The position numbers and the translations under genes are program-made. From a virus, in IMG/VR virus record IMGVR_UViG_3300034023_000183, positions 1 through 62,865 of that record: a stretch of 62,865 nucleotides of DNA; one strand, written 5' to 3'. Shown in pieces: positions 1 through 59,394 of this stretch (positions within the stretch are counted from its first letter, which is position 1; each line of letters begins with the position of its first letter). Below the pieces are notes generated by a model. It made no database searches, was not told the origin of the DNA, and saw only the letters and a list, made by a program, of their open reading frames with translations.

Positions 1-513
1 AAAGGTTTGGTTCTACAGATGGAAAACGACCAGATCACAGAAGTGTCTGGATGGGGTATGGCAGACTTTTTTAGAGATATCATGCGTGAGAACCCATACA
101 CTCAGAAGTTGGGATGCTATGATCCATACCTACACAAGTACATACTTGCATTTAACGATCAGAAGGTTGTACCTTGTAAGTTGACGCTGAGCAGATATTC
201 ATACAAAGGTCCATCTACACCATTTAATGTGATGGCATTCTTGATTAGCACAGATTCTGCCTGGACGATAAGCGTTCAAAATAATGGATACGGAACAAAC
301 TGGGTGTCTAACTATGCCACGTCTGGATTTGGACCGCAGAATATATTTATCAATGTGGCTCAAAACAATACAGGTTTTAATAGATTTATTACCTTTGTGG
401 TGTCATACTGTGACGGTTTAACTCAAGAATTTGTGTTAAATCAAGCAAAAGGCAAGAGAGGAGATGTTGTATTGACAGTATTTAATAACCCAACACCAGT
501 TATAAAGGGATAA
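1..513 (+). CDS. 3' end of large tail protein (rest at 59394-62865)
   Basis: This is the C-terminal 170 residues of the gene that starts at 59394. The frame is open from base 1, and the last 10 bases of the window repeat the first 10, so joining the ends keeps the frame and gives a protein of about 1,324 residues. The stop TAA shares its last base with the ATG of the Thr-rich gene (TAATG overlap), which suggests translational coupling. An ATG at base 25 is internal and not a likely start. I see no enzymatic motif in this part. Confidence 0.85.
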   Translation, partial: KGLVLQMENDQITEVSGWGMADFFRDIMRENPYTQKLGCYDPYLHKYILAFNDQKVVPCKLTLSRYSYKGPSTPFNVMAFLISTDSAWTISVQNNGYGTNWVSNYATSGFGPQNIFINVAQNNTGFNRFITFVVSYCDGLTQEFVLNQAKGKRGDVVLTVFNNPTPVIKG

Positions 514-3335
514 TGAGATCTAATCAAAAATTCACTGTAAACGGAAACACTTATAATATAAGCAATATTCCGTTGCTTGAAAATGGTATATCACTATTTA
601 ATGCAGAGAGTGGTGTTGGTGGTTATGAATATATGCCAGCCGATGGCGAGACAGTCATAGTAGCAGCTGGTGAACTTACTGGAGACGATACTACATTTAG
701 GACGTTTGATCCTACGATGAACAATCAGATATACTATCTTGTGTCTAATACTCAGTATACAACTGCTGACAGAGATAGGATACTAGATCAAGCTATTTCC
801 GTGCCAGTTACATATGTAGACCAGATGTATGTTGGTAGCTTTGTATTTAGCAATCCTAATGACTTTCAGTATCTATACTTGATATGGGACTATACAGATA
901 GATTGATAGGTACTATATCTTATTCTGGAGATGCTACTGAAAGAAATGTAACTACTGGCTATTCTACAAGTATTGGTAGAGCTGGAATTGACTATACAAC
1001 TGCTAATAAGCCAGTTAGATATCAGATAGGGTGGAACGGTATTATTGTAGGTGACACTGGATACGTTGGATTGAATTCAATGGCAAACTATGACGACTTG
1101 ATTGGACAGAAGATTGATCCATCTTTGATTAAGCTTGTAGAGCCATTTGATGGAACAATAAACAATGGTAATGGTTCTCTCATATTCAATAAGTATCTTT
1201 CAACAGCTGAGGCTACTATATTTGTATCTGCACCATTAAAGACTACTGTATTTACTATTACAAAGGTTGCAACTTTTTTGACATCATTCTTTTTGGATAC
1301 GACTGACGGTGATGAGAGTACAGTATGTTCGCAGACTCCAGTTGATGAGAAGTGGCATAATGGTACGTCTGCTCAGCCAGTTGTTGGTAATATAATCTAT
1401 AATGATTCAGACGGTTCTGAGGTATACAACGGAGGAGATGCTCTTCACCTTGGATACGACAACATCTATTTTAGAATATCTACAAATGGTATTGTTTCCT
1501 TTGTAGGAAACTGTATATGTCCAGAGTATGCGCCACCATTTATATATCAAGGAGACATATACGTTAACATAAACCAAGCATTCAGTATTCAGATAGCAGC
1601 TACTGGTAATCCTAATAACTGGACTATAGATACTGCTCTAGACAGCTATTTATTATCTCCTGGAACTACGTCAACTGCATTTGAGTATACGGACTCAGAC
1701 AATGTGGTTAGAAGAATATCTGTATCCACAAACACATACGTTTGTTCGTATACTGCCCCAACTATTTTGTATGGTGATGGTTCATATACTTCAGATGGGA
1801 ATTGTGGCACTTCAACTTTGCCTGATGGCGTTAACTTTGACTTAACTAATGGAACATTGTCTGGTTCATCTACTGGGCCATGTTTTTATCAATTTACAGT
1901 AAAGGCTTCAAACTGTTTTGGTGATTCAGCGTTGAAGACTATAAGCATTAATGTTAACGACACAATTAATAACACACCGTTCTTAATTGACGTAGAGAAC
2001 TTTGGAGATACTGGAGATGCAGCTTGTGCACTTGCTGTGCCTTTGTATAGTGTGTACTACCATAATGGTGCTGGACGTGTTCCTACCGTTGGTGACACTA
2101 TATATTCTGACGATAATCTTACTACTCCGTTCATGGGTGGTGACCAGTGGTATAAGATTGACCACTCGACATACAGCATACAAGTAAATCCATTTGGTAG
2201 AGTATGCGAGAAGAACGAGTGTCCCGTATCTACGACTACGACAACTAGTACGACAACTACAACTAGCACGACTACTCTTCCATCTGGAGATTATTTTGAG
2301 GCTACGTTGTGCGTAAATGGTGCAGTCACTGCTGTTATATTTGACGCAACAACTGCTGGACTAGCTCCTGGTGATACGGTTAAAACAACTGACGGTAACT
2401 GTTGGACGATTGATTCTACTACAACGGCAAGTTATCCGTACTATTCGATTGAAGCTTTGGCTACGGTATATGGTGATTGTGATACATGTTTGAACGTAAC
2501 TACTACAACAACTACCACTACAACTACAACGGCAACTCCAGTACTTGCGTTTGATGCAGATCCGACAGCATACGAAAGTTCTAGTGAGGCATGTGCATCT
2601 GGTACGGCTCCTTATACTACGTTCTATCATAATGGCGAGGTAACGTATCCTAATGTGTACGACTTTATATTTACAGATTCTTTGGGTACAACATACTTTG
2701 ATGGTGCTTACGGATGGTACTACATGGACAACGGATACGTAATACAGATTGCGACTACTGGTCAAGTGTTAAGCGTTATCGATTGCTCTGCCACTACTAC
2801 TACAACTACAACCACGATACCTACATGGTACTATGAGGCTGTAGAGTGTGGAACAGCTAGCCCTACATTTATAGTATCGCAGCAGAGTTTCACAGAGCTT
2901 ATTGTGGGTAATGTTGTGAAATGTGATGATGGAATATGTTATACTATTACTACTACTGGAGAGTCTGCACCAGCTGATCATGTTATATTGTTTGTATATG
3001 CTACATGTCTAGACTGCCAAGGTGTAACGACTACAACTACTAGTACTACTACAACAACAACTACTAGTACTACCACGACAACTACGACTACAACTACGAC
3101 TCTTCCTCCGTTGACTAAGATAACGACAAGAAGTGGATCAAGCACTGGAGTTTGTTCTGGAACGCTTGGAGAATTTTTTGTTGACGGACCTCTTGGTGTT
3201 TACGGAAATAGTATTTATATTTACAGTTCTGGATACTCGTTGGCACCAGCAGCATACTATTTAAATACTATCACTGGTATAGCGTATGAGTGGGACGGAA
3301 CAGATTGGACAGGCAATTCAGTTACATGCAGTTAA
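513..3335 (+). CDS. Tail/fibre-like protein with poly-threonine linkers and repeated domains
   Basis: A 940-residue protein. Four runs of almost pure threonine with some serine lie near residues 572-592, 662-677, 760-771 and 838-867 and separate small Cys-containing domains. One domain type (YHNG, then GD.IY.D, then a closing Cys) occurs about three times, near residues 270-335, 490-571 and 677-760. A second type, with Cys pairs near its end, occurs twice (about 593-660 and 772-837). The Thr codons are mixed (ACT, ACA, ACG, ACC), so these are not simple DNA repeats. Mucin-like Thr tracts are typical O-glycosylation sites, and the next gene is glycosyltransferase-like. Its place between the tail gene and more tail genes points to a surface-exposed tail appendage or receptor-binding protein. 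Function is inferred from position. Confidence 0.75.
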   Translation: MRSNQKFTVNGNTYNISNIPLLENGISLFNAESGVGGYEYMPADGETVIVAAGELTGDDTTFRTFDPTMNNQIYYLVSNTQYTTADRDRILDQAISVPVTYVDQMYVGSFVFSNPNDFQYLYLIWDYTDRLIGTISYSGDATERNVTTGYSTSIGRAGIDYTTANKPVRYQIGWNGIIVGDTGYVGLNSMANYDDLIGQKIDPSLIKLVEPFDGTINNGNGSLIFNKYLSTAEATIFVSAPLKTTVFTITKVATFLTSFFLDTTDGDESTVCSQTPVDEKWHNGTSAQPVVGNIIYNDSDGSEVYNGGDALHLGYDNIYFRISTNGIVSFVGNCICPEYAPPFIYQGDIYVNINQAFSIQIAATGNPNNWTIDTALDSYLLSPGTTSTAFEYTDSDNVVRRISVSTNTYVCSYTAPTILYGDGSYTSDGNCGTSTLPDGVNFDLTNGTLSGSSTGPCFYQFTVKASNCFGDSALKTISINVNDTINNTPFLIDVENFGDTGDAACALAVPLYSVYYHNGAGRVPTVGDTIYSDDNLTTPFMGGDQWYKIDHSTYSIQVNPFGRVCEKNECPVSTTTTTSTTTTTSTTTLPSGDYFEATLCVNGAVTAVIFDATTAGLAPGDTVKTTDGNCWTIDSTTTASYPYYSIEALATVYGDCDTCLNVTTTTTTTTTTTATPVLAFDADPTAYESSSEACASGTAPYTTFYHNGEVTYPNVYDFIFTDSLGTTYFDGAYGWYYMDNGYVIQIATTGQVLSVIDCSATTTTTTTTIPTWYYEAVECGTASPTFIVSQQSFTELIVGNVVKCDDGICYTITTTGESAPADHVILFVYATCLDCQGVTTTTTSTTTTTTTSTTTTTTTTTTTLPPLTKITTRSGSSTGVCSGTLGEFFVDGPLGVYGNSIYIYSSGYSLAPAAYYLNTITGIAYEWDGTDWTGNSVTCS

Positions 3336-4243
3336 AATTTATATCTGCTCAACCAGCCATTGATTATTACGCTTGGCAGGCTGAGGTTTACATCACACAG
3401 TTCTTGAGACTGGGATACAATCCAGAGGACATATACGTCATTGCTGGGTACGAGGACGAGCCAGACATGTCATGGCATAAGTTGATGAGGAAGTTCCCGA
3501 AGGTGAACATACACATCTACCGTGACACGACTGGACCTATTGACTACCAGCCAGCTGTGCAGGCTCATCTTCTTGAGAAGCACTGGGCCAAGTTCCCAGA
3601 GTCACAGAACTATGCGTGGTTCTTCCATGATGCCGATTTTCTGTTTACTAAGTATTTCGACTTTTCTCCATATCTTAAAGACAACAAGTGGTACTTCTCT
3701 GATACTATCAGTTATATAGGTGCCGACTATATAAAGAGCAAGGGAGACGTGGTACTGGACATTATGTGTCAAACAGTAAATATTGACAGATCTACCGTAG
3801 AGGCAAACCAGAAGAACTCTGGTGGTGCACAGAAGCTTATGAAGAACGTGACAAAAGAATACTGGGCTGCGGTGTACAAGTCATCGATCGACCTATATGA
3901 CATTTTAAGAAAGGTATCACACATCAAGAAAGAAGGCGACGAGTACGGCATACAGATATGGACGGCAAGTATGTGGGCTGAGCTGTGGAACGCATGGAAG
4001 ATGGGCTATGTTGTTGAGGTACCGAAGGAGTTTGACTTCTGCTGGGCTACATGTCATGTAAGCAAGTGGGACGAACTGGCGTTCTTCCACAATGCTGGTG
4101 TGCCAAACGCAAGCAGCGGAATGTTCTTTAAGGCAGACTACATAGATAAGTTTCCGTATGGTACGAATCTAGACATAGATAACAGCAGGTGTAGCTATAA
4201 ATACTACGAGATCGTTAAATCAATTGACAGCTATATAATTTAG
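3326..4243 (+). CDS. Glycosyltransferase-like protein (GT-A type)
   Basis: A 305-residue protein starting at the ATG that overlaps the previous stop (ATG, 4 bases, TAA). An earlier in-frame ATG at 3290 would overlap more and looks spurious. Around residues 98-107 there is a hydrophobic strand followed by His-Asp-Ala-Asp (D102-x-D104), a DxD-type motif of GT-A glycosyltransferases that binds metal and sugar nucleotide. No signal peptide or membrane segment is visible, so it should act in the host cytoplasm. The tight overlap with the poly-Thr protein makes that protein the obvious candidate acceptor. The family call rests on motif and general pattern only. Confidence 0.6.
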   Translation: MQLKFISAQPAIDYYAWQAEVYITQFLRLGYNPEDIYVIAGYEDEPDMSWHKLMRKFPKVNIHIYRDTTGPIDYQPAVQAHLLEKHWAKFPESQNYAWFFHDADFLFTKYFDFSPYLKDNKWYFSDTISYIGADYIKSKGDVVLDIMCQTVNIDRSTVEANQKNSGGAQKLMKNVTKEYWAAVYKSSIDLYDILRKVSHIKKEGDEYGIQIWTASMWAELWNAWKMGYVVEVPKEFDFCWATCHVSKWDELAFFHNAGVPNASSGMFFKADYIDKFPYGTNLDIDNSRCSYKYYEIVKSIDSYII

Positions 4244-4255: not shown

Positions 4256-4993
4256 ATGGCAATAGAGACTCTATCATATTCACCAGCAGCTAACGGGTGG
4301 TCATCCCGTTGGTCATTCGAGCCAGATTGGATGGTTGGAATGAATAATAAACTGTACACATGGAAGGACGGTAGTCTTTACGAGCACTACTCCAATGAGA
4401 CTAGAAATGAGTTCTACGGTGTGGCATATCCTTCTACCGTTACGAGTATATTAAACGAGTTTCCTCAAGACAGAAAGATGTACAAGACTCTTGCTGTTGA
4501 TAGCGACCATGTGTGGTCTGCTGAAGTAGAGACAGAGCTTGGAGAGGGTGCAATTGCTTCAGATGAGTTTCAATTAAAGGAGGGCGTATGGTTTGCATTT
4601 ATCAGACGCAACGATGGTGATCTTGACTTGCATGAGATATCTGTACAAGGTCTTGGAGTTGTTGATGCATTTAACTACCCTAACATAGACCTTGCATATC
4701 CATATGATACTGATGGGCATATAAGCATTGGTGATGCATTGTATAAGATTGATGGATCTGGTGCTCTTGTGTTCTTGGCAAATGTTTTAGATCATAATGA
4801 ATTTACAATATCTGTAGATGCACCACTTGCTGCTCCTTTAACAATGGGTGATTTTCTAGTGTACGCTAAGAACAGCGTAGCCGAGTCGTTTGGTGCTCGT
4901 GGGTACCATATGATCGTTAAGCTTACCAACAATGATCCAGTCCAAGTGGAAATTTATTCACTTCGATCAAATGTATTCAAAAGTTTTGAATAA
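4256..4993 (+). CDS. Tail structural protein, crAss-like type
   Basis: A 245-residue soluble protein. The N-terminal half has a pattern I associate with tail proteins of Bacteroidota podoviruses: a W-S-S-R-W-SF-PDWM stretch, then LYTWKDGSLYEH, then FYG..YPSTVTSI. The gene has its own promoter 4 bases ahead and sits between the fibre-type genes and the ejection proteins, so a virion role is likely. No catalytic motif is visible. The exact role in the tail cannot be read from sequence. Confidence 0.6.
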   Translation: MAIETLSYSPAANGWSSRWSFEPDWMVGMNNKLYTWKDGSLYEHYSNETRNEFYGVAYPSTVTSILNEFPQDRKMYKTLAVDSDHVWSAEVETELGEGAIASDEFQLKEGVWFAFIRRNDGDLDLHEISVQGLGVVDAFNYPNIDLAYPYDTDGHISIGDALYKIDGSGALVFLANVLDHNEFTISVDAPLAAPLTMGDFLVYAKNSVAESFGARGYHMIVKLTNNDPVQVEIYSLRSNVFKSFE

Positions 4994-7202: not shown

Positions 7203-10200
7203 ATGAACGATAAACAAAAGGAATTATATTCTTATTTAAGAGATAACGATCTTACTGATTTAGATTCAACAGCATTTTTTTCTAAATATTCAGATCCATC
7301 TAAGTCAAAGGAAATTTATGCCTATTTGAAACAGAATGGCATGACTGATTTAGATGCAAATGCTTTTCACGTTGCATACTTTTCTCCAGTTAAAAAAAAA
7401 AGTACTACGGTATCACCATCCGTACAAAAGAAAAAACCTACTTCTTCGGGTACTATGCCGAGTTGGATGCAAAGCTCTTTGGAGCAATCATCAAAAAAAG
7501 AACAAGCAGCTAAGAAGACTGTTGTTCCAAAAAAAGCAAAGAGTTCTAATATTTCTTTGGATGTAGAATCATTAAAAAATCCAAATGCTCCTAAAAAGGA
7601 AAAACAAGATTTTGATATATACTACGGATATCCTGGACAAGAAAAAAATCAATATAGAATAAGCAACGGAAGATGGCAAAGAAAATATGGCCAGAACTGG
7701 GTGGATGTATCTAATCCAGGATCTATAGATTCTTTAACTAAATTCTTTAAAAAGGAAAAAGAAATATTAAAAGATGAAAAAGTATTTACTGGATTTCCTG
7801 GTAAAGAAAATAATAGATATAGAATATCTGAACTACAGAACGGACAAAAAGTTTGGGAGGTTCAAAGAAGTGGTCAAAAAGATTTCACTGTAATTGCAGA
7901 TCAAGGATCAATCGATGCGTTAAACAGACAGTTTAACAAAAAGATTCAGTACAATGATGATGCACAGAGCAAGCGAGAGGCACAAATAAATAGAAGAGAA
8001 AGTGCATCTGAAGATTTCAAGACAGTTACTGGCAAGCTTGTAGGAAAGGAATCTGATGAGGTTTCTAAGTACTTAAACAAATTGTATGGTAACCGAGGAT
8101 TTAGATTCACTCCAGTAGGCTGGTTAACAGATAGAATACGAGTAAGTGCAGAGGGTACTGACAGAACAGAGATATTTGAATTAGACAACTGGACAGACAA
8201 TACGGATTCAGCTGAGGCATTAAAGTTAAGAAAATTCTTATCAGAGAATCAACAGTTGGGTGACTATATCGATCTTGAAAGGGAAGAAGAAAAGAATGCT
8301 GAAAAGGATATTTTAGGTACAGAATTGACTAGGGAAGATCTTGATAAACAAATTTCAAGACTTCGAGTTGCTGGAAATCAAGCCGAATTTAAATCAGCTC
8401 AAAAACAAAATACCGAAGAGAATATTGCTAAAGGGTTAAACAAAAACTCTACAGATGTAATTGAAGCTAGAAAAACATTGATTCGTGCTAAATACGATAC
8501 AAATCAAAGAATAGACGACCTAACAAAAACAGCAAAGACGAAGTCTGAAAAAAGCGAACTAGCTGCTATTGCTATGGCTAATAAAGGTAATTTTGTTGAA
8601 ACACATAAGGTAGACAATGAATATATAAATGATTTAAATAAAACAAGCAAGGCTCTAGATGGTGATCTTAAACAACTTAAATCAGATGTAGATGATTTTA
8701 ATGCATACATAAAAGAAAATAAAATAACTAAAGAGCAACTAGAATCTGATCCAGAGCTTATGGCTAAAAAAGATTCTATTCAAGTGAGATACGACCAGCT
8801 AGTAGCTAGTGCAGATGAATTTGAATTTGAATCTAAAAAAATTCCATTCATACAACAACAAAACTCTAGAAATGCTGCTCTTTATTTTGCTTACAATGAA
8901 ACTAGGGGTAGCGTTATTGGTAGCACATGGAACGGACTTGTTAGAGGGTTTCTTGCTCCAATGCAAACATTCAGAGTTGTAGATAAGGAGGGACTAGATA
9001 ATGTTGTAGAATTTCTAGGTAGCTCAAGCACAGCGGAATTTGCACAATCTAAAGATAGAAATGATTTATCTAGAGCATTATTAAGTACGTCTGAATCTCT
9101 TGGTGCTGCTGTTATGGCTCGATTGACTGGAGGTATAGCTACTGAAGGAACAATAGCTAGTAAGGCACTTCAATTTACTCCATTCTTCTCTATATCATAC
9201 AATGAGATGCAGAATGAAATAAATAGCATTCCAGGAATGAATAAGGTGCCTTGGTATAAAAAAGAGGCTCTATGTATAGCATACGGTATTGGAGTAGGTT
9301 ATTTAGATAAACTATCAACTGATTTTTCAGTAAAAGGAAAAATATCAAATAAGATTGGAAGAGATCTAGTATTAAGAAGCATAGCTGGCTTACCTAAAGG
9401 CGCATCTGCTGAAGCTATAGAAATGGCAATCGCAAGTAATTTTAAGAAAAGTTTAGCAGCTGGAACCATAAAAATAATAGCTGGTTCTGTTGTAGAGGGA
9501 ATTACAGAGGGCGTTCAATCTACATATGGAACTGGACTTAAGGAGGCTTATGACTGGATGAATGGAGTAGATGAGTTTGATTCAAGAGAATGGATATCAC
9601 AAGCTCTTGAGGAAACTTATTATGGAGCATTGGGAGGTAGCATTATGAGTACTCCTTCAGCATTATTAAAGGGTACAAAGGATGGATTTGCCAGACTCAA
9701 TCCACAACAGATGGAGTTGGCAAGAAAGGTAATAGAGGATTCCAATATGCGTTCAATGGTTATAACAGATATCAAGACTAAGTTGATGTCTGGAGAAATA
9801 ACCAAGGAAGAGGCTAACAGCCAGATGGAAGCTATAAAAGAGTCTCAAGCTTTATTTTCAAAGATACCAGACAACTTGTCGGCAGAAAGTACATCTAGAG
9901 CTATGGACCTCATAAAGGAGCGTTCAGTTATAGAACAACAAATAAAAGGTAAGGATAAAGACCTTGTGATTGCTAGAACAAGAAGAATAGCAGCAATTAA
10001 TAACGAACTTAAAGTAATATCAGAAAATGCCATTAAAGAAAGCACAGAACAGCAGCAAGAAGGCACAGCAGAAGGCGGTGTCGTTCAACGTGAGGGAGTT
10101 GTTGAAGGACAACCAGAAGTCGGGCAAGGAGAAGGGACAGTCGGGCAAACCACGGAGCAAGGCACAGATATTGGCGATCGCACTGTCGAAGGCAGGAGTC

Positions 10201-13200
10201 AAGAAGAAATAGATACCAGAGTATCTGAACTTGAGGCAATGTTGGCGGATAATATTGCAGCTATCGAGGAGACAGGTACTGGCAAATTATCAGAGGCAGA
10301 AGTTGAGGCTGCACGCAGCGAAATTGAAGCATTGAAGTCTGAAGTTCCAGTAGAGACAGCAGCAAAGATGCCAGCCGCTAAGCCAGTGCCACCTATAGCG
10401 GAGACTACTGACACAAAGACCTACTCTGAGGCCCTTAGTTCTGCAAAGGCTGAACTCAAGGCAGAGGGTAAAGGATTAGACCTGCAGGTATCTGATGTAT
10501 CCCAAGAGGAGGCAGATCAGATTATAGCTGATGGAGGAAAGATATTCATGACTGAAGACGGACTGGCAGGAGCCTACGTTAAGAAGGACGGATATATGGG
10601 CGGTCTATTCAAGAGTCCTAGAGCTACATACAATAAGGTAGCGAAGTTGCTTCAGCAGGCACGTATTAAGGTAGGTGGTAGATTCATGGATGCTTATGCT
10701 ACAGAACTTGAGAAGATATACATAGAGAACGGATTCCGTCCAGTTGCACGACTTAAGTTCAATGAGGAGTATGCACCAGAAGGATGGGATGCACCAGGAT
10801 CAGCGTTGGCATCTAAGCCAGACGTTGTGTTCTTTGCGTATGATCCAGATGGAAAGTATAGCATAGGTGACGGTGAGTACGTGACTGACTATGACGCTGC
10901 ATACGAGATGGCCAAGAACTTTGATTCTAAGGTCTCTAATGAAGCAGACAAGTTGGCAGAGTTGATGAAGGGATCTACAGTTGTTGAGGGGACTGAACAA
11001 CAGGTTGATGCTTTAATAAAGGAGATAAGTAATTCTGAAGACGTTGTTTCTGAGCGTTATGTTCTTGAGGCGGTTAATAATGCGACAAAGGCATTGAGAG
11101 CTATACTTCCAAATGTGAAATTCGTACTTCACAGTACAGACGAGTCATTTAGAAAAGCTGTTGGTGAGACAAACGAGACAGACTCATCACGTGGAGCATT
11201 CGATCCTGGAAAGAAGGTTATACATATAAATCTTACAAAGGCAAACAGAAGAACTGTGATGCATGAGGTATTTCATGCTATTATCGTGTCTAAGGTATCA
11301 TCTGATGCTAAGCTTCAGAGCTTGACAAAGAACATGGTCAAATCTGTAATAAAGTCATTGAAGCAGTCTGGTGCAAATCAGAACGTAATTACTTATCTAG
11401 AGGAATTTTCAGCTGGATATAAGGCTGAGGAGCAAAATGAGGAGAAGTTGTCTGAACTTTTTGCATTGCTTGGAGAGACATATAAAAGTCTACCTTATCC
11501 AACTCAGAACATTATCCAACGATTCTTAGATAGAGTCGCAAAGATGTTTGGTCTTAAGGAGATGACTGACCGTGAGGTTGTAGATTTCATGAACTCATTG
11601 TCTGGCAGAGTTGAGGCTGGTATAGAAATTAGTCCTAAGGAGTTTAAGGTAAGTAAAGCTACGATCAAGAGTGCAGTAAAAAAATTCCAAGCTAATTTTA
11701 AAGATGAAGTATCTGGGCTTGAATTTGTCTATGATGAAAACGGAGAAAAATTTGCTGAACTAGAAAAGGATGGATTTATAACTAAGGATAGATCTATAAC
11801 AAACTTTGATGGTCAATACATGTTCTTTCATCAGCCAGATGCAGCATTCTCTGGAATGATAGTTAAGCGTAACAAAAAAACTGGAGAAGTTGAACTTTTA
11901 ATTGAAGGAAAGGGTGGAATGTATTACCCAATAAAATTCCATGAGAATGGGTTTTTCTGGGCCAGTACAAGCAAAGTAGCTGAAAAAATGGCTAATGACT
12001 TGAATGAAGCTATGGAACAAAATGGAGGTAAATTATTGATGGCCTTAACATCAGCTCCATACGATAAGCTTTTATCTAGCACTACAGCTGCAAATTCAGT
12101 TATGGACTTAATATCTTCAAAAGCATTTGATAGAAATTTTGCCATAAGTCCAGCTCAATTAAAAAATATATTAATAAACGCAGCCGCTTTCACTAAAGAG
12201 CAAAAAAATATTATCAAGGATAAAAACAAAAAACCTATTCTAGATAAAAACGGAAATGTTCAATATAGAATTAAAAATGTTGGTTTAGGAATTAAAATCA
12301 AAAAAGGAGATTCATTAGAAGATGTAAAATCAAAAATAAAAGAATTATTGAATCCAGACGCTAAATCATTTGCTGATAGAAAGACTTTTGTTGAGGCAAT
12401 GATAAAAGAGACTGTTGATATAATAAATTCAAATCCTAAAGCTATAAGTCAATTTGGAGAATTTTTTAGTACTGGAATACAAAACAAATATTTCAAGGGC
12501 ACAAGAAAGAAGGGATATAACATATCTACTGCAAATATGAAACAAGCTTTGTCTGAGATGTTGACAGAACCAATGCTGAAGGAAGGTGTTAATAGAGACA
12601 AGGGAGGACAGATATATGCAATAATAGAACTAGATGGAAAGGTTAAGCCAGTTGATTCTGATCTGCATGAATCATATCCTAAAGCTATACAATCAGTTGA
12701 TCCTAAAAACAATAAAGTTAAGCTACATATATTGACTGATCGAGTTAAATGGAACGAAGTAGCTGAAGATTTTGAGACCAATGATATTGTTGCCCCTGGG
12801 GATAGAGAATTAGAGATATTTCCTACTAGCGGTATATCTGTTAGAGCATTAAAAATAAACACCAAAAACATAGTCACAGAAGAGAAGGCTACTGAAGTTG
12901 AGGATAAATCAACCATCAAAAAGCAAAAACCACTACAGCCAGAGGTAGCTGAAAAGCTGACGGAAGACGGTAAGGGTAACTTTGTGTTCAATCACTACTC
13001 TGATAAAAAGAGAGATGTGATCAAGCCTGGAACGGGACAGAACATTATTACCAGCCGAGAGGAAGGTAGTGCGTTAAGTGCTGTCGGTGGATTGGCTCAG
13101 TACTACACAATGGACATGCAGAAGGAGATGGGTACTGGTCCTAACCAACACACCATACTCATACCTATGGACCGTGTGTACTACTTCAACAAGGATCAAG

Positions 13201-16200
13201 ATGGATTCTATGACGAAGCGAAGAGAAGATTTGAAGAGGTGCGTCCAGGTCAAGCATTCAGTCCGAACTACCAAGTGGCATTCATAACGCAAGTTGCGAA
13301 TGAGAATGGGTACGACATAGTTGTTGCTAACTGGAGAAACGGAGAGCTTCGTGCTCAGACTACTTTGGAGCTTACACCTTCAGACAAAATAATCAATTTC
13401 AAGCCATTGAAGGAGGTTACATATGAGGTAGGAGACACTATTGAAGTTTACGGTGGAAAGGCAAAGATCACTGCTATTGATGGTGATATAATAACTTTCA
13501 AGGGTGAAACAACTGGTGGTACTATAAACTTCAAGAGAAGTCCAAAGAGCATCCAGAAGGTAGCTACTCCAAAAGCACAGGTTGAGGAAGAGGTGAAGTC
13601 TCTAGATGAAGAGATGAAGCCTAAGATGAAGAAGCAAAGAGTAGATAAGGCATCTGAAAAACTTCAACAGTTATTTGAGAGAGATAATGTACCACTTAGC
13701 ATTCAAGAGGCAAAAGATATAGTAAATGAAGTTTATGACTGGACCACATGGTACGATGACTTAAAGTCATATGTTGACGGAATATTTGGAGAATACGCTG
13801 AGGATGTATTATCAATGTTACCTTTATCTTCTCAAGCTGCTAACAGTGCAACTACTGTAGCATTAGCAATAAAAAATGCAGAACTTATATACCAAGGAGA
13901 AAAGCCTGTAGGTGTTGCAGAGTACTATGGATATGTCACTGATTTCTTACAAGGCAAAGGAATAAAGTCAGATAAGATGTATAACTTCTTTAAGGCTTTG
14001 GATGGCGATAAAGATGCTATTGCTGTTGACATGCATGTTTGGTCAATAATAATGGGTAAAAATCCAGATAAAAAACAAGTAAACCCTAAAAATCAAGCAG
14101 AATTTGACAGAGCAAAAGAATTTATAAATACTTTAGCTACTGAAATGGGGCTTGCTCCAAGAGAGGTCCAAGCTGCATTATGGGCAGCAAATATAATGAG
14201 AACTGGAGGAAGACCAGATAGCTATGAAGAATACTTTAAAAAACAACTAGATGGAAAAGGACTTAAAGAAAGGATCGAAAACTGGAGGAACGAAGGCTAT
14301 AAGCCATTTTCTAAAGTTCGTAGAGAAAGAGAAGCAGAAAACCAACCAAAATTCAAAAAACAAAAGCCAAGCAAACAAGCAGACGTGATTGTGAAGACTG
14401 GTAAGGAGGCTGGGTTCTCTGACGCTGGTATCCGTGAGTATATGAAGCGTAACGGATATACTGACCGTCAAGCTACTGATGCGATAAGGGCATACAACGA
14501 CAAGAAGGAGGGTATATTTATCGATCCAGAGTGGTCTAAGTTGAGAAAGGCAGCCGTTATATTCAAGCGAAGATTCTTATTGTCTCGTGGATTAATGCCA
14601 AGTTCTGCATTTGCTTCATATGAAGAAAGTCAAGCTAACACAGCAAAAGATTTTAATAGAGCTGAAAAAACACTAGTTGACTTCAATCGTGCTATGAAAA
14701 AAGTTCCAAAGGCAGACAGAGATAAAGTTAGAATAGACTTTGATGAATATGTTCGTGGAGACAATACGGTATCTCTTCCTGCTGATTTGAAAAAAGTAGC
14801 AGATACTATGCGTGCTCACATTGATTCAATCTCTATAAGTTTAATAAACAGTGGAGTTGTTGATGAACACTTAGCACAAAAGATAAAAGACAATCTTGGA
14901 TCATATTTCACTAGGTCTTATAAGGTACATGACCGTGCAAACTGGAAGAATGAAGTTGAAGAAGATATAAAGCAGAAGGCCATAAATTTATTGAAGGTTC
15001 AATATAGGAAAATGGCAGAAGAAGAAGCTGCTAAGGAAAACATGGATGTAGAGGAAGCTCTTGACAACCTTGTTACTAATGCTGTTAATGATATGCTCAC
15101 TAAATCTGGTGCAGAGAACTTTGTTTCTGGAGGCAAAAAGGGAAGCAAGGATTTATCTATACTAAAGGAGAGACAAGATATTCCACTTGAGATTCGTATG
15201 TTGATGGGTGAATACACAGATCCAGCACAGAACTATGCAAGAACAATCCTTAAAATGTCTGCTCTTGCAGCAAATCATCACTTCTTAACAGAAGTAAAGA
15301 AGAATGGAACTGGGGTATTTTTATTTGAAAAGAATGATCCTAGAAGGCCTTTAGATTTTGATTACAAAATTGCGGCCGAGGGAAGTGAAACCATGAATCC
15401 TCTCAATGGTATGTACACCACTGAGGAGATAGGAAAGCAGTTTGAAGAACAATCATCTCAACTTAATGGTGCCCTTAAGTGGATGCTAGAAACATACATG
15501 AAGGTTCTATCTTCTGTCAAGTGGGGGAAAACCATTGGTTCAATCATGACTCACGCAAAGAACGTGTTTGGTAACCTTGGATTTGTTTTGCTAAATGGTC
15601 ACTGGAGAGTAAATGAAATGGGTAAAGCATACCAAACTGTAAGACGTGATTTGTGGTCAACAGATAATGAAAAATCTAGAGAATACATGAATCACCTAAT
15701 AGGTCTTGGTATTGTAAAACAATCTGCTGGTATAGGTGAACTTCGTGCAATGTTTAAGGATGCAGATTGGGATACTGCAATGGTTGAAAGACTAAATAAA
15801 AAATCTTCGTCTGCATTGGAATTTATTAAATATAAAATTGGTGGTAGAGTAAAAAAATTCCTAGAAGACAGATACCAAGCTGAGGATGACTTCTTCAAGA
15901 TTGTCGCATACGAGAATGAGCTTTCTAGATATTCTAAGGCTATGTTTGGCAAAAGAAAGACAGAACTTACTAAAGAAGAAAAGGCAGAGGTAGATAAGGT
16001 TGTAGCTGAAATAGTTAAAAACACTTATCCAACATACAGTAGAATACCAGAGCTTGTTAATGTAATTAGAAAATTCCCATTTGTTGGTAACTTTATAGCG
16101 TTCCAAGCGGAGTCATACAGAACTGCATTTAACACAGCAGCACTTTCACTAGAAGAGATTAGATCTAAAAATTTTAAAATTAGAATGATTGGTGCTCAAA

Positions 16201-17090
16201 GACTTGTTGGATCATTAACGTATATGGCAGGTAAGACTGCTATATTGTCTGCATTTTCTAATGCAGTTGGTATGGGATATGTTGGAATACTTGGATATTT
16301 TACGGATGATGATGATGAAAAGCAAAAAGAGAATGATGTTAGAAAATTCGTAGCTCCTTGGTCTAAGAACTCAGACCTAGTTGTTTTAAAGGCAAGTAAT
16401 GGAAAGATACGATACATAGACTTTAGTTCATCAGATCCTCACGGAGGAATCAACAAGGCACTAAACTCTGCACTATCTGGAAAGACTACCATTGACGGAT
16501 TCATAAATGCAATAGGTTCAACCATTGAACCATTTGTGGGTGAGGAGATGACAACGGCTGCAATACTTGCTGTAAAAAACAATCAAGACGCATACGGAAA
16601 ACCTATATACAATCCAGAGGATACATTCGCTCAAAAGTCTAAGGACATAATAGCTTATATGCTGAATGTTGTGCAGCCTGGGACCGTTAGTACAATGAAG
16701 AGGATATATGAATCTGAGAGTGTTCTAAATGAAGTTCTTGGGGCATCTACAGGTATGAGAGTATATGACGTGGATGTAGCTGAGAATTTTGGTTACTCTA
16801 TGATAACCTATAGAAATAGAATGGAGGATGCTAAGAGAATATACAACTCTGAGGTGTATTCAAAGGATGCGACAGATAAGTCTATTGCTGATGCAAAGAA
16901 GAGAGCCGAGAATGCAATAACTCAGATACACAAAGAGATATACGAAAGGTATTACTCGGCTGTTAGATTGGGTGCAAATGAGGATGTATTGTTTGACAAT
17001 ATAAAAAGATTTGGAAGAATGTCAAATATAGATATGCAGTTTATGTTTGGAGAGATTCCATATCTTATGGAAGAAAAATACGCAGAATAA
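7203..17090 (+). CDS. Giant polyvalent protein with metalloprotease motif, probably ejected with DNA
   Basis: 3,295 residues, 16 percent of the genome. In order: two ~30-residue repeats with Y.YL and TDLD signatures (1-62); two copies of a GYPG/GFPG...YRIS module (about 142-195 and 197-250); a helical, partly hydrophobic region (600-880); a Glu/Gln/Gly linker (943-1000); a region resembling the GNAT-like domains of phage polyvalent proteins (about 1067-1245); a zinc-metallopeptidase motif H1354-E-V-F-H1358; an ART-like region starting NHYSDKK (about 1929-2080); a region like the helical DUF7178 type (about 2148-2370); and an 850-residue C-terminus with a hydrophobic pair near 3003-3037 before an Asp-rich turn. 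Polyvalent proteins are known to be packaged and injected to counter host defences. Only HEVFH is strong evidence here; the other domain names are resemblances. Confidence 0.75.
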   Translation: MNDKQKELYSYLRDNDLTDLDSTAFFSKYSDPSKSKEIYAYLKQNGMTDLDANAFHVAYFSPVKKKSTTVSPSVQKKKPTSSGTMPSWMQSSLEQSSKKEQAAKKTVVPKKAKSSNISLDVESLKNPNAPKKEKQDFDIYYGYPGQEKNQYRISNGRWQRKYGQNWVDVSNPGSIDSLTKFFKKEKEILKDEKVFTGFPGKENNRYRISELQNGQKVWEVQRSGQKDFTVIADQGSIDALNRQFNKKIQYNDDAQSKREAQINRRESASEDFKTVTGKLVGKESDEVSKYLNKLYGNRGFRFTPVGWLTDRIRVSAEGTDRTEIFELDNWTDNTDSAEALKLRKFLSENQQLGDYIDLEREEEKNAEKDILGTELTREDLDKQISRLRVAGNQAEFKSAQKQNTEENIAKGLNKNSTDVIEARKTLIRAKYDTNQRIDDLTKTAKTKSEKSELAAIAMANKGNFVETHKVDNEYINDLNKTSKALDGDLKQLKSDVDDFNAYIKENKITKEQLESDPELMAKKDSIQVRYDQLVASADEFEFESKKIPFIQQQNSRNAALYFAYNETRGSVIGSTWNGLVRGFLAPMQTFRVVDKEGLDNVVEFLGSSSTAEFAQSKDRNDLSRALLSTSESLGAAVMARLTGGIATEGTIASKALQFTPFFSISYNEMQNEINSIPGMNKVPWYKKEALCIAYGIGVGYLDKLSTDFSVKGKISNKIGRDLVLRSIAGLPKGASAEAIEMAIASNFKKSLAAGTIKIIAGSVVEGITEGVQSTYGTGLKEAYDWMNGVDEFDSREWISQALEETYYGALGGSIMSTPSALLKGTKDGFARLNPQQMELARKVIEDSNMRSMVITDIKTKLMSGEITKEEANSQMEAIKESQALFSKIPDNLSAESTSRAMDLIKERSVIEQQIKGKDKDLVIARTRRIAAINNELKVISENAIKESTEQQQEGTAEGGVVQREGVVEGQPEVGQGEGTVGQTTEQGTDIGDRTVEGRSQEEIDTRVSELEAMLADNIAAIEETGTGKLSEAEVEAARSEIEALKSEVPVETAAKMPAAKPVPPIAETTDTKTYSEALSSAKAELKAEGKGLDLQVSDVSQEEADQIIADGGKIFMTEDGLAGAYVKKDGYMGGLFKSPRATYNKVAKLLQQARIKVGGRFMDAYATELEKIYIENGFRPVARLKFNEEYAPEGWDAPGSALASKPDVVFFAYDPDGKYSIGDGEYVTDYDAAYEMAKNFDSKVSNEADKLAELMKGSTVVEGTEQQVDALIKEISNSEDVVSERYVLEAVNNATKALRAILPNVKFVLHSTDESFRKAVGETNETDSSRGAFDPGKKVIHINLTKANRRTVMHEVFHAIIVSKVSSDAKLQSLTKNMVKSVIKSLKQSGANQNVITYLEEFSAGYKAEEQNEEKLSELFALLGETYKSLPYPTQNIIQRFLDRVAKMFGLKEMTDREVVDFMNSLSGRVEAGIEISPKEFKVSKATIKSAVKKFQANFKDEVSGLEFVYDENGEKFAELEKDGFITKDRSITNFDGQYMFFHQPDAAFSGMIVKRNKKTGEVELLIEGKGGMYYPIKFHENGFFWASTSKVAEKMANDLNEAMEQNGGKLLMALTSAPYDKLLSSTTAANSVMDLISSKAFDRNFAISPAQLKNILINAAAFTKEQKNIIKDKNKKPILDKNGNVQYRIKNVGLGIKIKKGDSLEDVKSKIKELLNPDAKSFADRKTFVEAMIKETVDIINSNPKAISQFGEFFSTGIQNKYFKGTRKKGYNISTANMKQALSEMLTEPMLKEGVNRDKGGQIYAIIELDGKVKPVDSDLHESYPKAIQSVDPKNNKVKLHILTDRVKWNEVAEDFETNDIVAPGDRELEIFPTSGISVRALKINTKNIVTEEKATEVEDKSTIKKQKPLQPEVAEKLTEDGKGNFVFNHYSDKKRDVIKPGTGQNIITSREEGSALSAVGGLAQYYTMDMQKEMGTGPNQHTILIPMDRVYYFNKDQDGFYDEAKRRFEEVRPGQAFSPNYQVAFITQVANENGYDIVVANWRNGELRAQTTLELTPSDKIINFKPLKEVTYEVGDTIEVYGGKAKITAIDGDIITFKGETTGGTINFKRSPKSIQKVATPKAQVEEEVKSLDEEMKPKMKKQRVDKASEKLQQLFERDNVPLSIQEAKDIVNEVYDWTTWYDDLKSYVDGIFGEYAEDVLSMLPLSSQAANSATTVALAIKNAELIYQGEKPVGVAEYYGYVTDFLQGKGIKSDKMYNFFKALDGDKDAIAVDMHVWSIIMGKNPDKKQVNPKNQAEFDRAKEFINTLATEMGLAPREVQAALWAANIMRTGGRPDSYEEYFKKQLDGKGLKERIENWRNEGYKPFSKVRREREAENQPKFKKQKPSKQADVIVKTGKEAGFSDAGIREYMKRNGYTDRQATDAIRAYNDKKEGIFIDPEWSKLRKAAVIFKRRFLLSRGLMPSSAFASYEESQANTAKDFNRAEKTLVDFNRAMKKVPKADRDKVRIDFDEYVRGDNTVSLPADLKKVADTMRAHIDSISISLINSGVVDEHLAQKIKDNLGSYFTRSYKVHDRANWKNEVEEDIKQKAINLLKVQYRKMAEEEAAKENMDVEEALDNLVTNAVNDMLTKSGAENFVSGGKKGSKDLSILKERQDIPLEIRMLMGEYTDPAQNYARTILKMSALAANHHFLTEVKKNGTGVFLFEKNDPRRPLDFDYKIAAEGSETMNPLNGMYTTEEIGKQFEEQSSQLNGALKWMLETYMKVLSSVKWGKTIGSIMTHAKNVFGNLGFVLLNGHWRVNEMGKAYQTVRRDLWSTDNEKSREYMNHLIGLGIVKQSAGIGELRAMFKDADWDTAMVERLNKKSSSALEFIKYKIGGRVKKFLEDRYQAEDDFFKIVAYENELSRYSKAMFGKRKTELTKEEKAEVDKVVAEIVKNTYPTYSRIPELVNVIRKFPFVGNFIAFQAESYRTAFNTAALSLEEIRSKNFKIRMIGAQRLVGSLTYMAGKTAILSAFSNAVGMGYVGILGYFTDDDDEKQKENDVRKFVAPWSKNSDLVVLKASNGKIRYIDFSSSDPHGGINKALNSALSGKTTIDGFINAIGSTIEPFVGEEMTTAAILAVKNNQDAYGKPIYNPEDTFAQKSKDIIAYMLNVVQPGTVSTMKRIYESESVLNEVLGASTGMRVYDVDVAENFGYSMITYRNRMEDAKRIYNSEVYSKDATDKSIADAKKRAENAITQIHKEIYERYYSAVRLGANEDVLFDNIKRFGRMSNIDMQFMFGEIPYLMEEKYAE

Positions 17091-37466: not shown

Positions 37467-39056
37467 ATGATACCAAAAAGAGTTTATTTAGGTAATTCTG
37501 GGCACGAAAAGCTAAAAAACGGAATTAGAAAGCTGACTGGAGCAGTCGAATCAACGCTCGGACCATACGGTGAGACCGTACTGATGGAGTCAGAGAACCA
37601 TGTAGGTGGTGTAGTCATCACGAAGGACGGTGTATCGATCGCCAAGAACATTAATCTGTACGATCCAGTGGAGAATCTGGCTGTAAGCATCGTAAAGGAG
37701 GCTGCCAAGAAGACGGCAGTGGCTGCTGGTGACGGTACGACAACATCTATTGTGTTGACGAACGCCATATTGGAGGCTGCTGACAAGTACATGGAGCCAG
37801 GTATGAACAAGACGAACGTCATCCGACACATCAACAAGATACTTGACGACTCGATTTCTTTCTTGGCGAAAAAGGCTAGGCCAGTAAATGGCACGGATCT
37901 GGTGGACGTTGCTACGATCTCGGCAAACAATGACCCAGATTTGGGTAAGATGATCGCTGACGTGTATGACCAGGTTCGAGTAGTTACGGTTGAGAACTCA
38001 AAGACACCAGTGACGTACTCTGAGATCATACATGGTATGAAGGTGGACCGAGGTTGGTCGAGCAAGTTCTTCGTTACTGACGAGAAGAAGGAGGAGTGTG
38101 TGCTTGAGAATCCATACGTGTTGTTGTGTGATCTTGAGATTAACAACTTCCAATCTATCTTCAACGCTATCGAGCCAGTTGTGAAGCAAGGACGACCGTT
38201 GTTGATTATCGGTAATCTTTCGCAGAACGCACAGAACACGTTGAACTTAAACGTGGTGAAGAAGGTGATCAAGGCGTGTCATATTCAGCCACCATCTATG
38301 GGCTACCGCAAGGACGACTTGATGAACGACTTGTCTATGGTCTTGGATGCACGCATCTACTCTGAGAAGACTGGTGATGATCTTCAGTTGATCGAGTTTG
38401 ATGGATTGGGGCAAGCTGCAAAGATTATTGTTACCAAGGACCGTACTATTATCATGCGTCATGCTAATGCAGACGACGAGGCTATCGAGAGCTATATCGG
38501 AGATCTTAAGGATCAGCTATCAGAGGCAGTTACACAGACTGAACGAAACGACTTGATGGAGCGTATTGCAAACATCAGTGGAGGTGTTGGTGTCATACAT
38601 GTGGGTGCAAATTCTGATATCGAGCAGAAGGAGAAGTATGACCGTGTTGACGATGCTGTTCGTGCAGTAGGTGCTGCATTGGAGGAGGGAATTCTTCCTG
38701 GTGGTGGTATTGCACTAGCTAGAGCACTTGAGAACATTAAGGACGATGGTAAGGATAAGGAGTATACGGTTGCGGCTGACATTATGGCTTATGCTATGGC
38801 GAAGCCTACGGCACAGATAATGATCAATGCTGGTCTTGACTACATGAAGATATGTGAGCCGTTGTTTAAGAAGAAGTTCGACTACGGGTATGATGTGAAG
38901 AACGGCAAGTACGGATCTATGTACAAGATGGGTGTTATTGACCCAGCATTGGTGACAAAGAGTGCCTTGAAGAACGCAGTGTCTGTAGCTACAACGATTA
39001 TGTCTACGCAGGCAATTATTACTAACATGAGAGAGGACGACAATGAAAAGTGTTAA
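37467..39056 (+). CDS. groEL: Phage chaperonin GroEL
   Basis: 529 residues, full length for GroEL apart from the tail. Visible landmarks: TLGPYG and KDGVSIAK near the start (ATP pocket Asp), GDGTTT near 88-93, apical domain with DRGWSSKFFV and PLLIIG, DDAVRAVGAALEEGILPGGG (catalytic Asp), and MGVIDPALVTKSAL near the end (adenine site). The usual Gly-Gly-Met C-terminal tail is missing; it ends NEKC. The apical domain is the least like host GroEL, as expected if it is tuned to phage proteins. It should fold capsid or tail proteins in the host cytoplasm. Its last 14 bases overlap groES. Confidence 0.95.
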   Translation: MIPKRVYLGNSGHEKLKNGIRKLTGAVESTLGPYGETVLMESENHVGGVVITKDGVSIAKNINLYDPVENLAVSIVKEAAKKTAVAAGDGTTTSIVLTNAILEAADKYMEPGMNKTNVIRHINKILDDSISFLAKKARPVNGTDLVDVATISANNDPDLGKMIADVYDQVRVVTVENSKTPVTYSEIIHGMKVDRGWSSKFFVTDEKKEECVLENPYVLLCDLEINNFQSIFNAIEPVVKQGRPLLIIGNLSQNAQNTLNLNVVKKVIKACHIQPPSMGYRKDDLMNDLSMVLDARIYSEKTGDDLQLIEFDGLGQAAKIIVTKDRTIIMRHANADDEAIESYIGDLKDQLSEAVTQTERNDLMERIANISGGVGVIHVGANSDIEQKEKYDRVDDAVRAVGAALEEGILPGGGIALARALENIKDDGKDKEYTVAADIMAYAMAKPTAQIMINAGLDYMKICEPLFKKKFDYGYDVKNGKYGSMYKMGVIDPALVTKSALKNAVSVATTIMSTQAIITNMREDDNEKC

Positions 39057-58485: not shown

Positions 58486-59394
58486 ATGGCATACATTAGT
58501 AACTATCAGTACTACACAAACGGGGGCGTAACACCTACAGATGAAAACTGGGGTGAGTACCAGTATGTGTCGTTGCATGACATCGTGAATGACTTCATGT
58601 TGATGAATGTTGGACCAGACAAGTTGGTAGACAATGTTAAGCGATATGAGGTCTTGTATTATGCAAAGGACGCAGTTAAGGAGTTGAACTTTGATGCTAT
58701 GCGTAACATCAAAGTCATCGAGATTAATGTTGGTGACAACCTTAAGATGATACTTCCTCCAGACTATGTGGACTATATACGTATATCTTTGAACGTGGAC
58801 GGACAACTTTATCCATTGACAGAGAACAGCAGAGTATTGTCTGCTAGTGCATATCTACAAGACAACAACAATGAGGTTCTATTTGATTTAGATGGAGAGG
58901 TGTTGACTGGTACATCTGTTCTAGACATCAAACGTCTTGAGCAGCATACATACTGGGGTCCTGGAATATACAACGGATGCCAGGGATGGTGCTGGGGCGA
59001 CAACTGGTACTTTAGCTATCGAATTGGTTCACGCTACGGCATGGATCCATCTGAGGCAAACATCAATCCTAAGTTCCGTGTAAACCGTTCGGCTGGTGTC
59101 ATTGACTTCAGCTCTATGCGTGCAAACAGCTTGATCGTTATCGAGTATGTATCTGACGGCATGGAGAACGGTGACGATGACATGATACAGATCAACAAGT
59201 TTGCAGAGCGATTTGTAAAGGCACACATAAAATACATGCTGATGACCAACAAGGCATCGGTAAACGAATATATTGTAAGACGTACACAGACAGAGCGTAA
59301 GGCTGAACTGCGTAACGCAAGAATTAGAATGAGTAATATTCACCCGTCTAGACTCCTCATGACATTGAGAGGTCAAGGCAAATGGATTAAATAA
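58486..59394 (+). CDS. Ring/tail protein, crAss-like
   Basis: 302 residues. Signatures: LHDIVNDFMLMNVGPDKLV, YEVLYYAKDAVKELNFDAMRNIKVIEI, LPPDYVDYIRISLNVDG, and the Trp/Gly-rich CQGWCWGDNWYFSYRIG. These belong to the second ring protein of crAss-related phages. It shares one base with the next start (TAATG). Confidence 0.7.
   Translation: MAYISNYQYYTNGGVTPTDENWGEYQYVSLHDIVNDFMLMNVGPDKLVDNVKRYEVLYYAKDAVKELNFDAMRNIKVIEINVGDNLKMILPPDYVDYIRISLNVDGQLYPLTENSRVLSASAYLQDNNNEVLFDLDGEVLTGTSVLDIKRLEQHTYWGPGIYNGCQGWCWGDNWYFSYRIGSRYGMDPSEANINPKFRVNRSAGVIDFSSMRANSLIVIEYVSDGMENGDDDMIQINKFAERFVKAHIKYMLMTNKASVNEYIVRRTQTERKAELRNARIRMSNIHPSRLLMTLRGQGKWIK

Follow-up and report, generated by a model that had tools for sequence, protein, structure and literature searches.

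In mucins and in the serine-rich repeat adhesins of bacteria, disordered stretches rich in Ser and Thr are glycosylated in known cases, the adhesins intracellularly. The tracts that we describe here share this Ser/Thr-rich character but are nearly pure Thr and lie in a virion protein, with no homology shown. The general O-glycosylation system of the Bacteroidota modifies noncytoplasmic proteins at a D-[S/T]-hydrophobic motif (PMC12871550); it resembles our proposed case in its Ser/Thr O-glycosylation and in the likely Bacteroidota host group, but its acceptor motif, as given in that source, does not occur at our tracts. The fitting precedent is phage-encoded virion glycosylation. The mycobacteriophages Che8 and Rita encode glycosyltransferases, and glycans have been reported on their major capsid proteins (Freeman et al. 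2023, as cited in PMC11256854 and PMC13313380). The likeness consists of a phage-encoded glycosyltransferase (here a predicted one) and of phage genes devoted to virion modification, whereas the hosts are other than those of our phage, the excerpts of these two papers describe no Thr-homopolymer tag, and phage Maravista has its glycosyltransferase genes close to the genome's 3′ end rather than next to the substrate (PMC11256854, PMC13313380).

We analyzed a window of 62,865 nucleotides (the whole stretch, positions 1 to 62,865 of IMG/VR virus record IMGVR_UViG_3300034023_000183), in which all features given below by nucleotide position are on the plus strand. Positions 1 to 513 hold the 3′ end of a virion structural gene whose 5′ part lies at 59394 to 62855, across the circular junction. 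The following gene (513 to 3335) encodes a tail/fibre-like protein of 940 amino acids, our proposed glycosylation substrate, with a He_PIG Ig-like domain (amino acids 408 to 482) and three stretches matched by phrog_21885. Reading of this ORF confirmed the initial annotation's description of four Thr/Ser linkers between repeated Cys domains, which are beta-rich modules of two types, A and B, present twice each. The first type A module (amino acids ~499 to 572, positions 2007 to 2228), at the end of which natural short forms of the protein approximately stop, is followed by tract 1 (amino acids 573 to 588, STTTTTSTTTTTSTTT, 2229 to 2276), the first type B module (589 to 662, 2277 to 2498), and tract 2, with 11 Thr (663 to 673, 2499 to 2531). 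The second type A module (674 to 760, 2532 to 2792), tract 3, with 8 Thr (761 to 768, 2793 to 2816), the second type B module (769 to 838, 2817 to 3026), and the 25-residue Thr/Ser tract 4 (839 to 863, 3027 to 3101) come next, and a C-terminal module that differs from types A and B (864 to 940, 3102 to 3332) closes the protein.

A six-frame scan of the window for Thr-rich runs of at least 8 T/S residues found only these four tracts; by chance, 0.002 runs of at least 8 T/S would be expected per 940 residues, at the T+S frequency of 0.20 observed outside the tracts. In the C-terminal half of the protein model, the segments of low pLDDT coincide with the positions of the four tracts. The fold of the whole protein gave weak matches only, to strings of beta-sandwiches and mostly at an rmsd of >20 Å, and we set these matches aside. 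The residues just before tracts 1 to 4 are V, V, A, and V. The Bacteroidota system, which the initial annotation had offered as a precedent, is a poor one because no Asp precedes any of the tracts and because tail proteins assemble in the cytoplasm.

The next gene (3326 to 4243) encodes a predicted GT-A-fold glycosyltransferase of 305 amino acids. As first described, it overlaps the end of the tail gene and carries a DxD motif: its ATG at 3326 lies upstream of the tail stop codon (TAA, 3333 to 3335), giving an overlap of 10 nt, and the motif is D102-A-D104 (3629 to 3637). This motif and an HNAG motif at residues 255 to 258 (4088 to 4099), which by analogy with GT8 enzymes we take to be a possible source of a third metal ligand, are invariant in 56 aligned relatives, with D102, D104, H255, N256, G258, and K269 all unchanged. 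The initial annotation had let its reading depend on the predicted structure of this protein, which proved to be that of a glycosyltransferase (AlphaFold2, pLDDT 96.4, pTM 0.93). All 50 matches listed in a Foldseek comparison of the model with the PDB were glycosyltransferases; glycogenin aligned at Z 14.6 (222 residues, 3.6 Å) and LgtC at Z 14.3. The model thus predicts a GT-A fold with high confidence. The enzyme shares this fold over most of its chain, and the DxD, with glycogenin, LgtC, UGGT, and LARGE1 (GT8-type and other GT-A enzymes) but is only 7 to 10% identical to them and has neither a Pfam nor a significant GT8 profile match. Pfam returned no family at an E value of 1 besides one irrelevant subthreshold match, a search of the PDB by sequence gave nothing credible, and comparison with seven GT8 proteins (PF01501) did not place the enzyme in that family (hhalign probability 2.7), the alignment setting D102 and D104 weakly on their DxD. 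The enzyme belongs to the same protein family as phrog_4417 (E value 3.8 × 10−64, residues 3 to 301 against positions 1 to 292 of 293), but that family is catalogued as of unknown function, with the name "prophage pi2 protein 34" in some phage annotations. Its gene sits in a virus record that bears genes with the PHROG names of terminase and portal and is followed by a gene for a protein with a crassvirus-type muzzle C-terminal domain (4256 to 4993; PF25729, E value 1.7 × 10−14, above the cutoff).

The initial annotation had also proposed that poly-Thr proteins next to glycosyltransferase genes be surveyed in other phages, and the outcome was strongly positive. Among the matches listed (the best 80 of 575), a Thr-rich tract was found at 80 of 86 IMG/VR loci with the enzyme, at 69 of the 86 in the gene directly upstream of it, compared with 0 of 706 ORFs at random viral loci. 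Tracts were likewise present at 36 of 37 enzyme loci from genome assemblies and prophages and in 18 of 20 isolated phages with the enzyme. Background ORFs carried a tract in 24 of 497 cases in the IMG/VR enzyme loci and in 40 of 451 in the genome-assembly loci, counts that take in second tagged proteins. In L357, L369, Semele, and Iacchus, the enzyme is immediately preceded by short tag ORFs that fell below the longest-ORF filter. Two enzyme loci (L073 and L355) had no tract, L068 had PTPAPT repeats in place of a clear Thr tract, L075, L085, and L086 were without a clear tract (L085 having a short TTTTQAPTTTQAP), and at L014, where the upstream sequence is absent, no clear tract was readable. 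The tract was often a bare C-terminal tail of capsid, tail-tube, or protease proteins; the major tail protein of prophage bIL285 (Lactococcus lactis IL1403), for example, ends in ...TTTTTTTTTRHD, and the enzyme gene of this prophage is orf45. The tag is poly-Thr in the majority of cases; variants include TTVKPTTVAP in SAC12B and TTTETQTQTQ, which is common to two adjacent LP65 proteins. The linkage spans phages of Bacteroidota and Bacillota, and in unrelated phages the enzyme accompanies the tagged structural protein, whatever that protein is.

The codons of a poly-Thr run form an ACN repeat, which could be taken to mean that the tracts arose by chance repeat slippage and that their association with the enzyme is incidental. 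We compared 1,001 codon pairs of tract 2 across 14 relatives: 341 were identical, 647 were synonymous but different, and 13 were nonsynonymous. Selection on the tracts is therefore on the amino acid, Thr itself, and not on the DNA repeat. Tract lengths were moreover nearly constant among relatives only 36 to 54% identical. With codons scrambled, lengths conserved, and a linkage far above that of random loci, we rejected slippage as extremely improbable.

Next, we asked whether tract and enzyme occur together and are missing together in two protein families that were gathered without using the enzyme as a criterion. In the family of the window's tail protein (the best 80 of 359 relatives), the enzyme accompanied 47 of 47 long forms with tracts and 0 of 6 short forms, in which neither was present (Fisher P value = 4 × 10−8); in the Bacillota tail-tube family, a tract was found in 9 of 9 members with the enzyme and in 0 of 29 without it (Fisher P value = 6 × 10−9), the 29 including L434, interrupted and with its C terminus unread, and L427, with its 5′ end cut, and the Fisher P values here and below overstating independence, as many contigs are related and several are near-copies. 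In the natural short forms, a muzzle-type homologue lies directly 3′ of the tail gene. Outside the comparison of 47 with 6 were 27 of the 80 relatives. A contig end cut 16 of these tail proteins, among which 6 had tracts, and the other 11 were complete but had <1.2 kb of downstream sequence. Eight of these 11 had tract and enzyme; L441 had a tract and 106 bp of downstream sequence only, L501 had neither tract nor enzyme and a muzzle-type gene next, and in L515, which was interrupted, the next frame contained Thr tracts. Capsid proteins at the tail-tube loci behaved alike, with a tract in 8 of 8 with the enzyme and 0 of 20 without, counted at the 28 of 38 loci that had a capsid-sized ORF at the expected place. 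The enzyme, sought anywhere on the negative contigs, was absent from 36 of 36, and an any-frame scan of these loci gave three matches: L417 (on the minus strand), L426 (TSTTSTT), and L464 (a single Thr7 ~3 kb off the tail gene). In the tail-tube tree, an independent-pair test cannot reach significance because only 2 of the 6 changes are on well-supported branches.

Poly-Thr also occurs without this enzyme. Contigs chosen for at least 10 consecutive Thr lacked it in 37 of 46 cases, the 46 being those of at least 10 kb among 59 loci with at least 10 Thr in an ORF; of 80 pattern loci listed, 21 were not Thr in an ORF, and each pattern scan covered all but 40 further stretches. The converse linkage was modest, with the enzyme on 9 of 46 poly-Thr contigs versus 1 of 46 random ones (Fisher P value = 0.015), and in the single control contig with the enzyme, the gene that precedes it by 2 nt itself contains Thr/Ser-rich runs. 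These enzyme-less proteins, together with the fact that phages encode enzymes that alter host surface glycans, would agree with a glycosyltransferase that modifies another target, such as a host surface glycan in superinfection exclusion, its position in a structural operon being incidental and the tracts being unmodified flexible linkers or tails. We regard this as unlikely, since it leaves unexplained why enzyme-less homologues of the tagged tail-tube, capsid, and tail proteins have no tag and why the enzyme moves with the tagged structural protein in unrelated phages.

The same enzyme-less phages could also mean that the tracts are substrates of another host or phage enzyme and that this glycosyltransferase extends a first sugar or is one of several. 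Among 114 neighbours of enzyme-less poly-Thr proteins (9 of the 59 loci were excluded because they carry the enzyme, and 48 of the remaining 50 were taken), a GT25-like family (PF01755) and a GlcNAc transferase family (PF11397) occurred once each, and no alternative glycosyltransferase was dominant among the 25 of 58 Pfam families listed. A generic GT2 as the partner of poly-Thr was rejected, PF00535 being found in 6 of 37 contigs versus 8 of 45 controls. Against several enzymes stand this lack of a consistently present second family and the loss of the tract whenever the enzyme is absent in both families tested, and we consider such a division of labor quite unlikely.

We think it likely that the two genes are a substrate-enzyme pair and that the enzyme is a phage O-glycosyltransferase dedicated to virion proteins with Thr tags. 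It would move a sugar from a nucleotide sugar to the Thr (and Ser) hydroxyls of the tracts, in our phage the four flexible linkers of the adjoining tail protein. Covered with sugar, these linkers would turn into stiff spacers between beta modules and would resist proteases. Elsewhere, the same family may act on capsid, tail-tube, and protease proteins that end in a bare Thr tail. Sugar transfer would be cytoplasmic and would precede or accompany assembly. The benefit may be protection, spacing, or adhesion, the initial annotation having envisaged that sugars could shield the fibre or make it stick to mucus or host glycans. Catalysis, the Thr acceptor, the sugar, covalent modification, cytoplasmic action, and benefit are all steps that we infer. 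The initial interpretation, a fibre glycosylated by the phage's own enzyme, is supported, and the modification itself we infer.

The joint gain and loss of tag and enzyme in many unrelated phages suggest a portable system of virion sugar coating. On balance, we favor a portable glycosylation code in which a small dedicated GT-A enzyme and a homopolymeric Thr tag can serve any protein of the virion, be it a fibre (in its linkers), capsid, tail-tube, or maturation protease protein, pass between Bacteroidota phages and Bacillota phages, and diverge together. We found no publication linking a poly-Thr tag to the phrog_4417 enzyme among open-license PMC papers, which is weak evidence of absence. 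A likely function is thereby proposed for a family of unknown function in dairy, enterococcal, staphylococcal, and environmental phages, and sugar-coated virions, with the residues that carry the sugar, would be predictable from sequence alone. Such prediction bears on the immune recognition of phages, on virion stability, and on adsorption. The system is within reach in bIL285, a common laboratory prophage, and, paired with a single small enzyme, a short Thr tail might provide a simple tag for glycoprotein production in bacteria.

The first ten bases of the window (1-10) are the same as its last ten (62856-62865), and when the ends are joined at this repeat, ORF 59394-62855 runs on through 1-513 as a single open frame of 1324 aa. 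Because the terminal bases match and the joined ORFs are in frame, the genome is very probably circular, at about 62,855 bp, and the record circularly permuted and near-complete. The window also encodes a GroEL-like chaperonin (37467-39056; phrog_5725, E value = 1.8e-130) and a giant ORF of 3295 aa (7203-17090) that contains an HEVFH zinc-protease-like motif and whose product may be a virion protein that is internal or injected.

The initial annotation had paired a poly-Thr tail protein with a glycosyltransferase encoded by the next gene, and both parts of that layout were seen. Four Thr/Ser tracts (aa 573-588, 663-673, 761-768, and 839-863) separate the Cys modules of the tail protein (ORF 513-3335), and the start of the enzyme ORF, at 3326, falls inside the 3' end of the tail-protein ORF. 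From the composition of the tail protein, 0.002 such runs would be expected. Among relatives of 36 to 54% identity, the tract lengths are kept while the synonymous codons within them are scrambled, and the tracts fall on the low-confidence gaps that the structure prediction shows in its C-terminal half.

The 305-aa enzyme matched no Pfam family (there was a single irrelevant subthreshold hit), and its PHROGs match, phrog_4417 (E value = 3.8e-64), is catalogued as of unknown function. Its predicted structure, from a 56-sequence alignment, is of high confidence (pLDDT 96.4, pTM 0.93) and agrees with the proposed glycosyltransferase: all 50 PDB matches listed by Foldseek are glycosyltransferases, and D102 and D104 of the DxD motif are invariant across the alignment, as are H255, N256, G258, and K269. 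A second aligner gave Z scores of 14.6 for glycogenin (3.6 Å over 222 residues), 14.3 for LgtC, and 13 to 14 for UGGT, LARGE1, and WbbM. The DxD and H-x-x-G ... K pattern resembles the GT8 active site by analogy; no sequence link to GT8 was found by the tests tried. Since several of the nearest structures are retaining enzymes, our guess is a retaining mechanism.

The pairing recurs in other phages. Among 86 IMG/VR enzyme loci, a tract (defined as [TS]>=7 with Thr making up 70% or more) was present in the ORF directly upstream in 69 and anywhere in the locus in 80, compared with 0/706 ORFs of at least 100 aa in random viral loci; by a looser rule, tracts were found in 36/37 genome-assembly loci, mostly from Bacillota. 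The enzyme family occurs in 74 to 75 isolated-phage records, with hosts mostly Bacillota plus Chryseobacterium (MA9V-3). A strict tract ([TS]>=6 with >=5 T) was present in 18 of the 20 whose gene surroundings were read, that of phage 9183 being weak (TTTSTT). The tract lies on the protein directly upstream of the enzyme in fourteen phages; an intervening ORF separates the two in PT1-4. In bIL285, 9183, and VPE25, it is the capsid gene that immediately precedes the enzyme, and the tagged tail-tube protein is encoded 1.3 to 1.8 kb downstream. Bare C-terminal tags are often carried by two or three structural proteins of the same phage; in R9.1, the capsid protein ends ...TTTTTTTSHV and a 199-aa protein ends ...TTTTTTTTTSHV. 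In place of a strict tract, SAC12B has TTVKPTTVAP repeats and Lactobacillus phage LP65 has TTTETQTQTQ repeats, common to two adjacent proteins (L348, 7058-7940), one of them annotated as structural and MS-detected. The LP65 repeats stand beside an enzyme that has diverged strongly (27% identity to that of bIL285), which hints that tag and enzyme sequences diverge together.

The strongest evidence for the pairing is the joint gain and loss of tract and enzyme. A search with a tail-tube protein of a Bacillota phage, its Thr tail cut from the query and the enzyme left out of the selection, gave 38 relatives for comparison. The Thr tail was present in 9/9 enzyme-bearing loci versus 0/29 enzyme-less ones (the C-terminus of L434 being unreadable), many of the latter proteins having a short unrelated C-terminal sequence instead, such as VPEGA; capsid proteins, where recognized in the same loci, carried it in 8/8 and 0/20, respectively. 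Six label changes are needed on the tail-tube tree, and well-supported branches force two of these; the two supported-branch pairs agree in direction, two pairs being too few for significance. No tract was found near the VPE25 tail-tube relatives in the 12.5 kb read in Bob, TS-12, and phi1605, phages absent from the matches of the enzyme search. For the tail protein, we took the best 80 of 359 relatives of its N-terminus and compared the 53 complete ones with 1.2 kb or more of downstream sequence. Tracts were present in 47, and all 47 had the enzyme; the other six were short forms (581 to 588 aa) that end close to the expected position of the first tract and lack both tracts and enzyme. The start of the gene that follows them is similar to that of the window's muzzle-domain gene (4256-4993). 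phrog_4417 was found in none of 36 whole contigs lacking a local enzyme (the six short forms, a seventh, L501, and the 29 tail-tube loci). Because tract and enzyme are present or absent together in the families compared, the Thr-linked C-terminal half of the tail protein and the enzyme behave, at the sequence level, as one cassette.

There are exceptions in both directions. Enzyme loci L073 and L355 have no tract, and tracts are weak or different in L068, L075, L085, and L086. Among 46 IMG/VR contigs selected because they encode a run of ten or more Thr, 37 were without the enzyme (L097, L139, and L165 are examples). Because these lack it and no alternative glycosyltransferase family stood out in them, the explanation for them must lie in other enzymes, in genes past the ends of the contigs, or in poly-Thr that is unmodified. 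Downstream of a distant enzyme relative (L015, 6894-12856), ORF starts resemble, by eye, a nucleotide kinase and a nucleotidyltransferase, perhaps for further sugar or sulfate processing.

Glycosylation of mycobacteriophage virions by a phage-encoded system has been reported, as cited in PMC11256854 and PMC13313380. The new part appears to be the pairing of a Thr tag with a single dedicated enzyme family in phages of different bacterial phyla, of which we found no report in the open literature. The Bacteroidota secreted-protein O-glycosylation first invoked as a precedent is an unlikely source of the modification, because that host route, as described in PMC12871550, modifies noncytoplasmic proteins at a D-[S/T]-hydrophobic motif. 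The simplest reading is that the enzyme is a dedicated O-glycosyltransferase that would act in the cytoplasm and modify the Thr tracts carried by virion proteins. In the window's phage, this would yield a fibre with glycosylated rods as spacers between its beta modules, and the glycosylated tracts may serve in protection, spacing, or adhesion.
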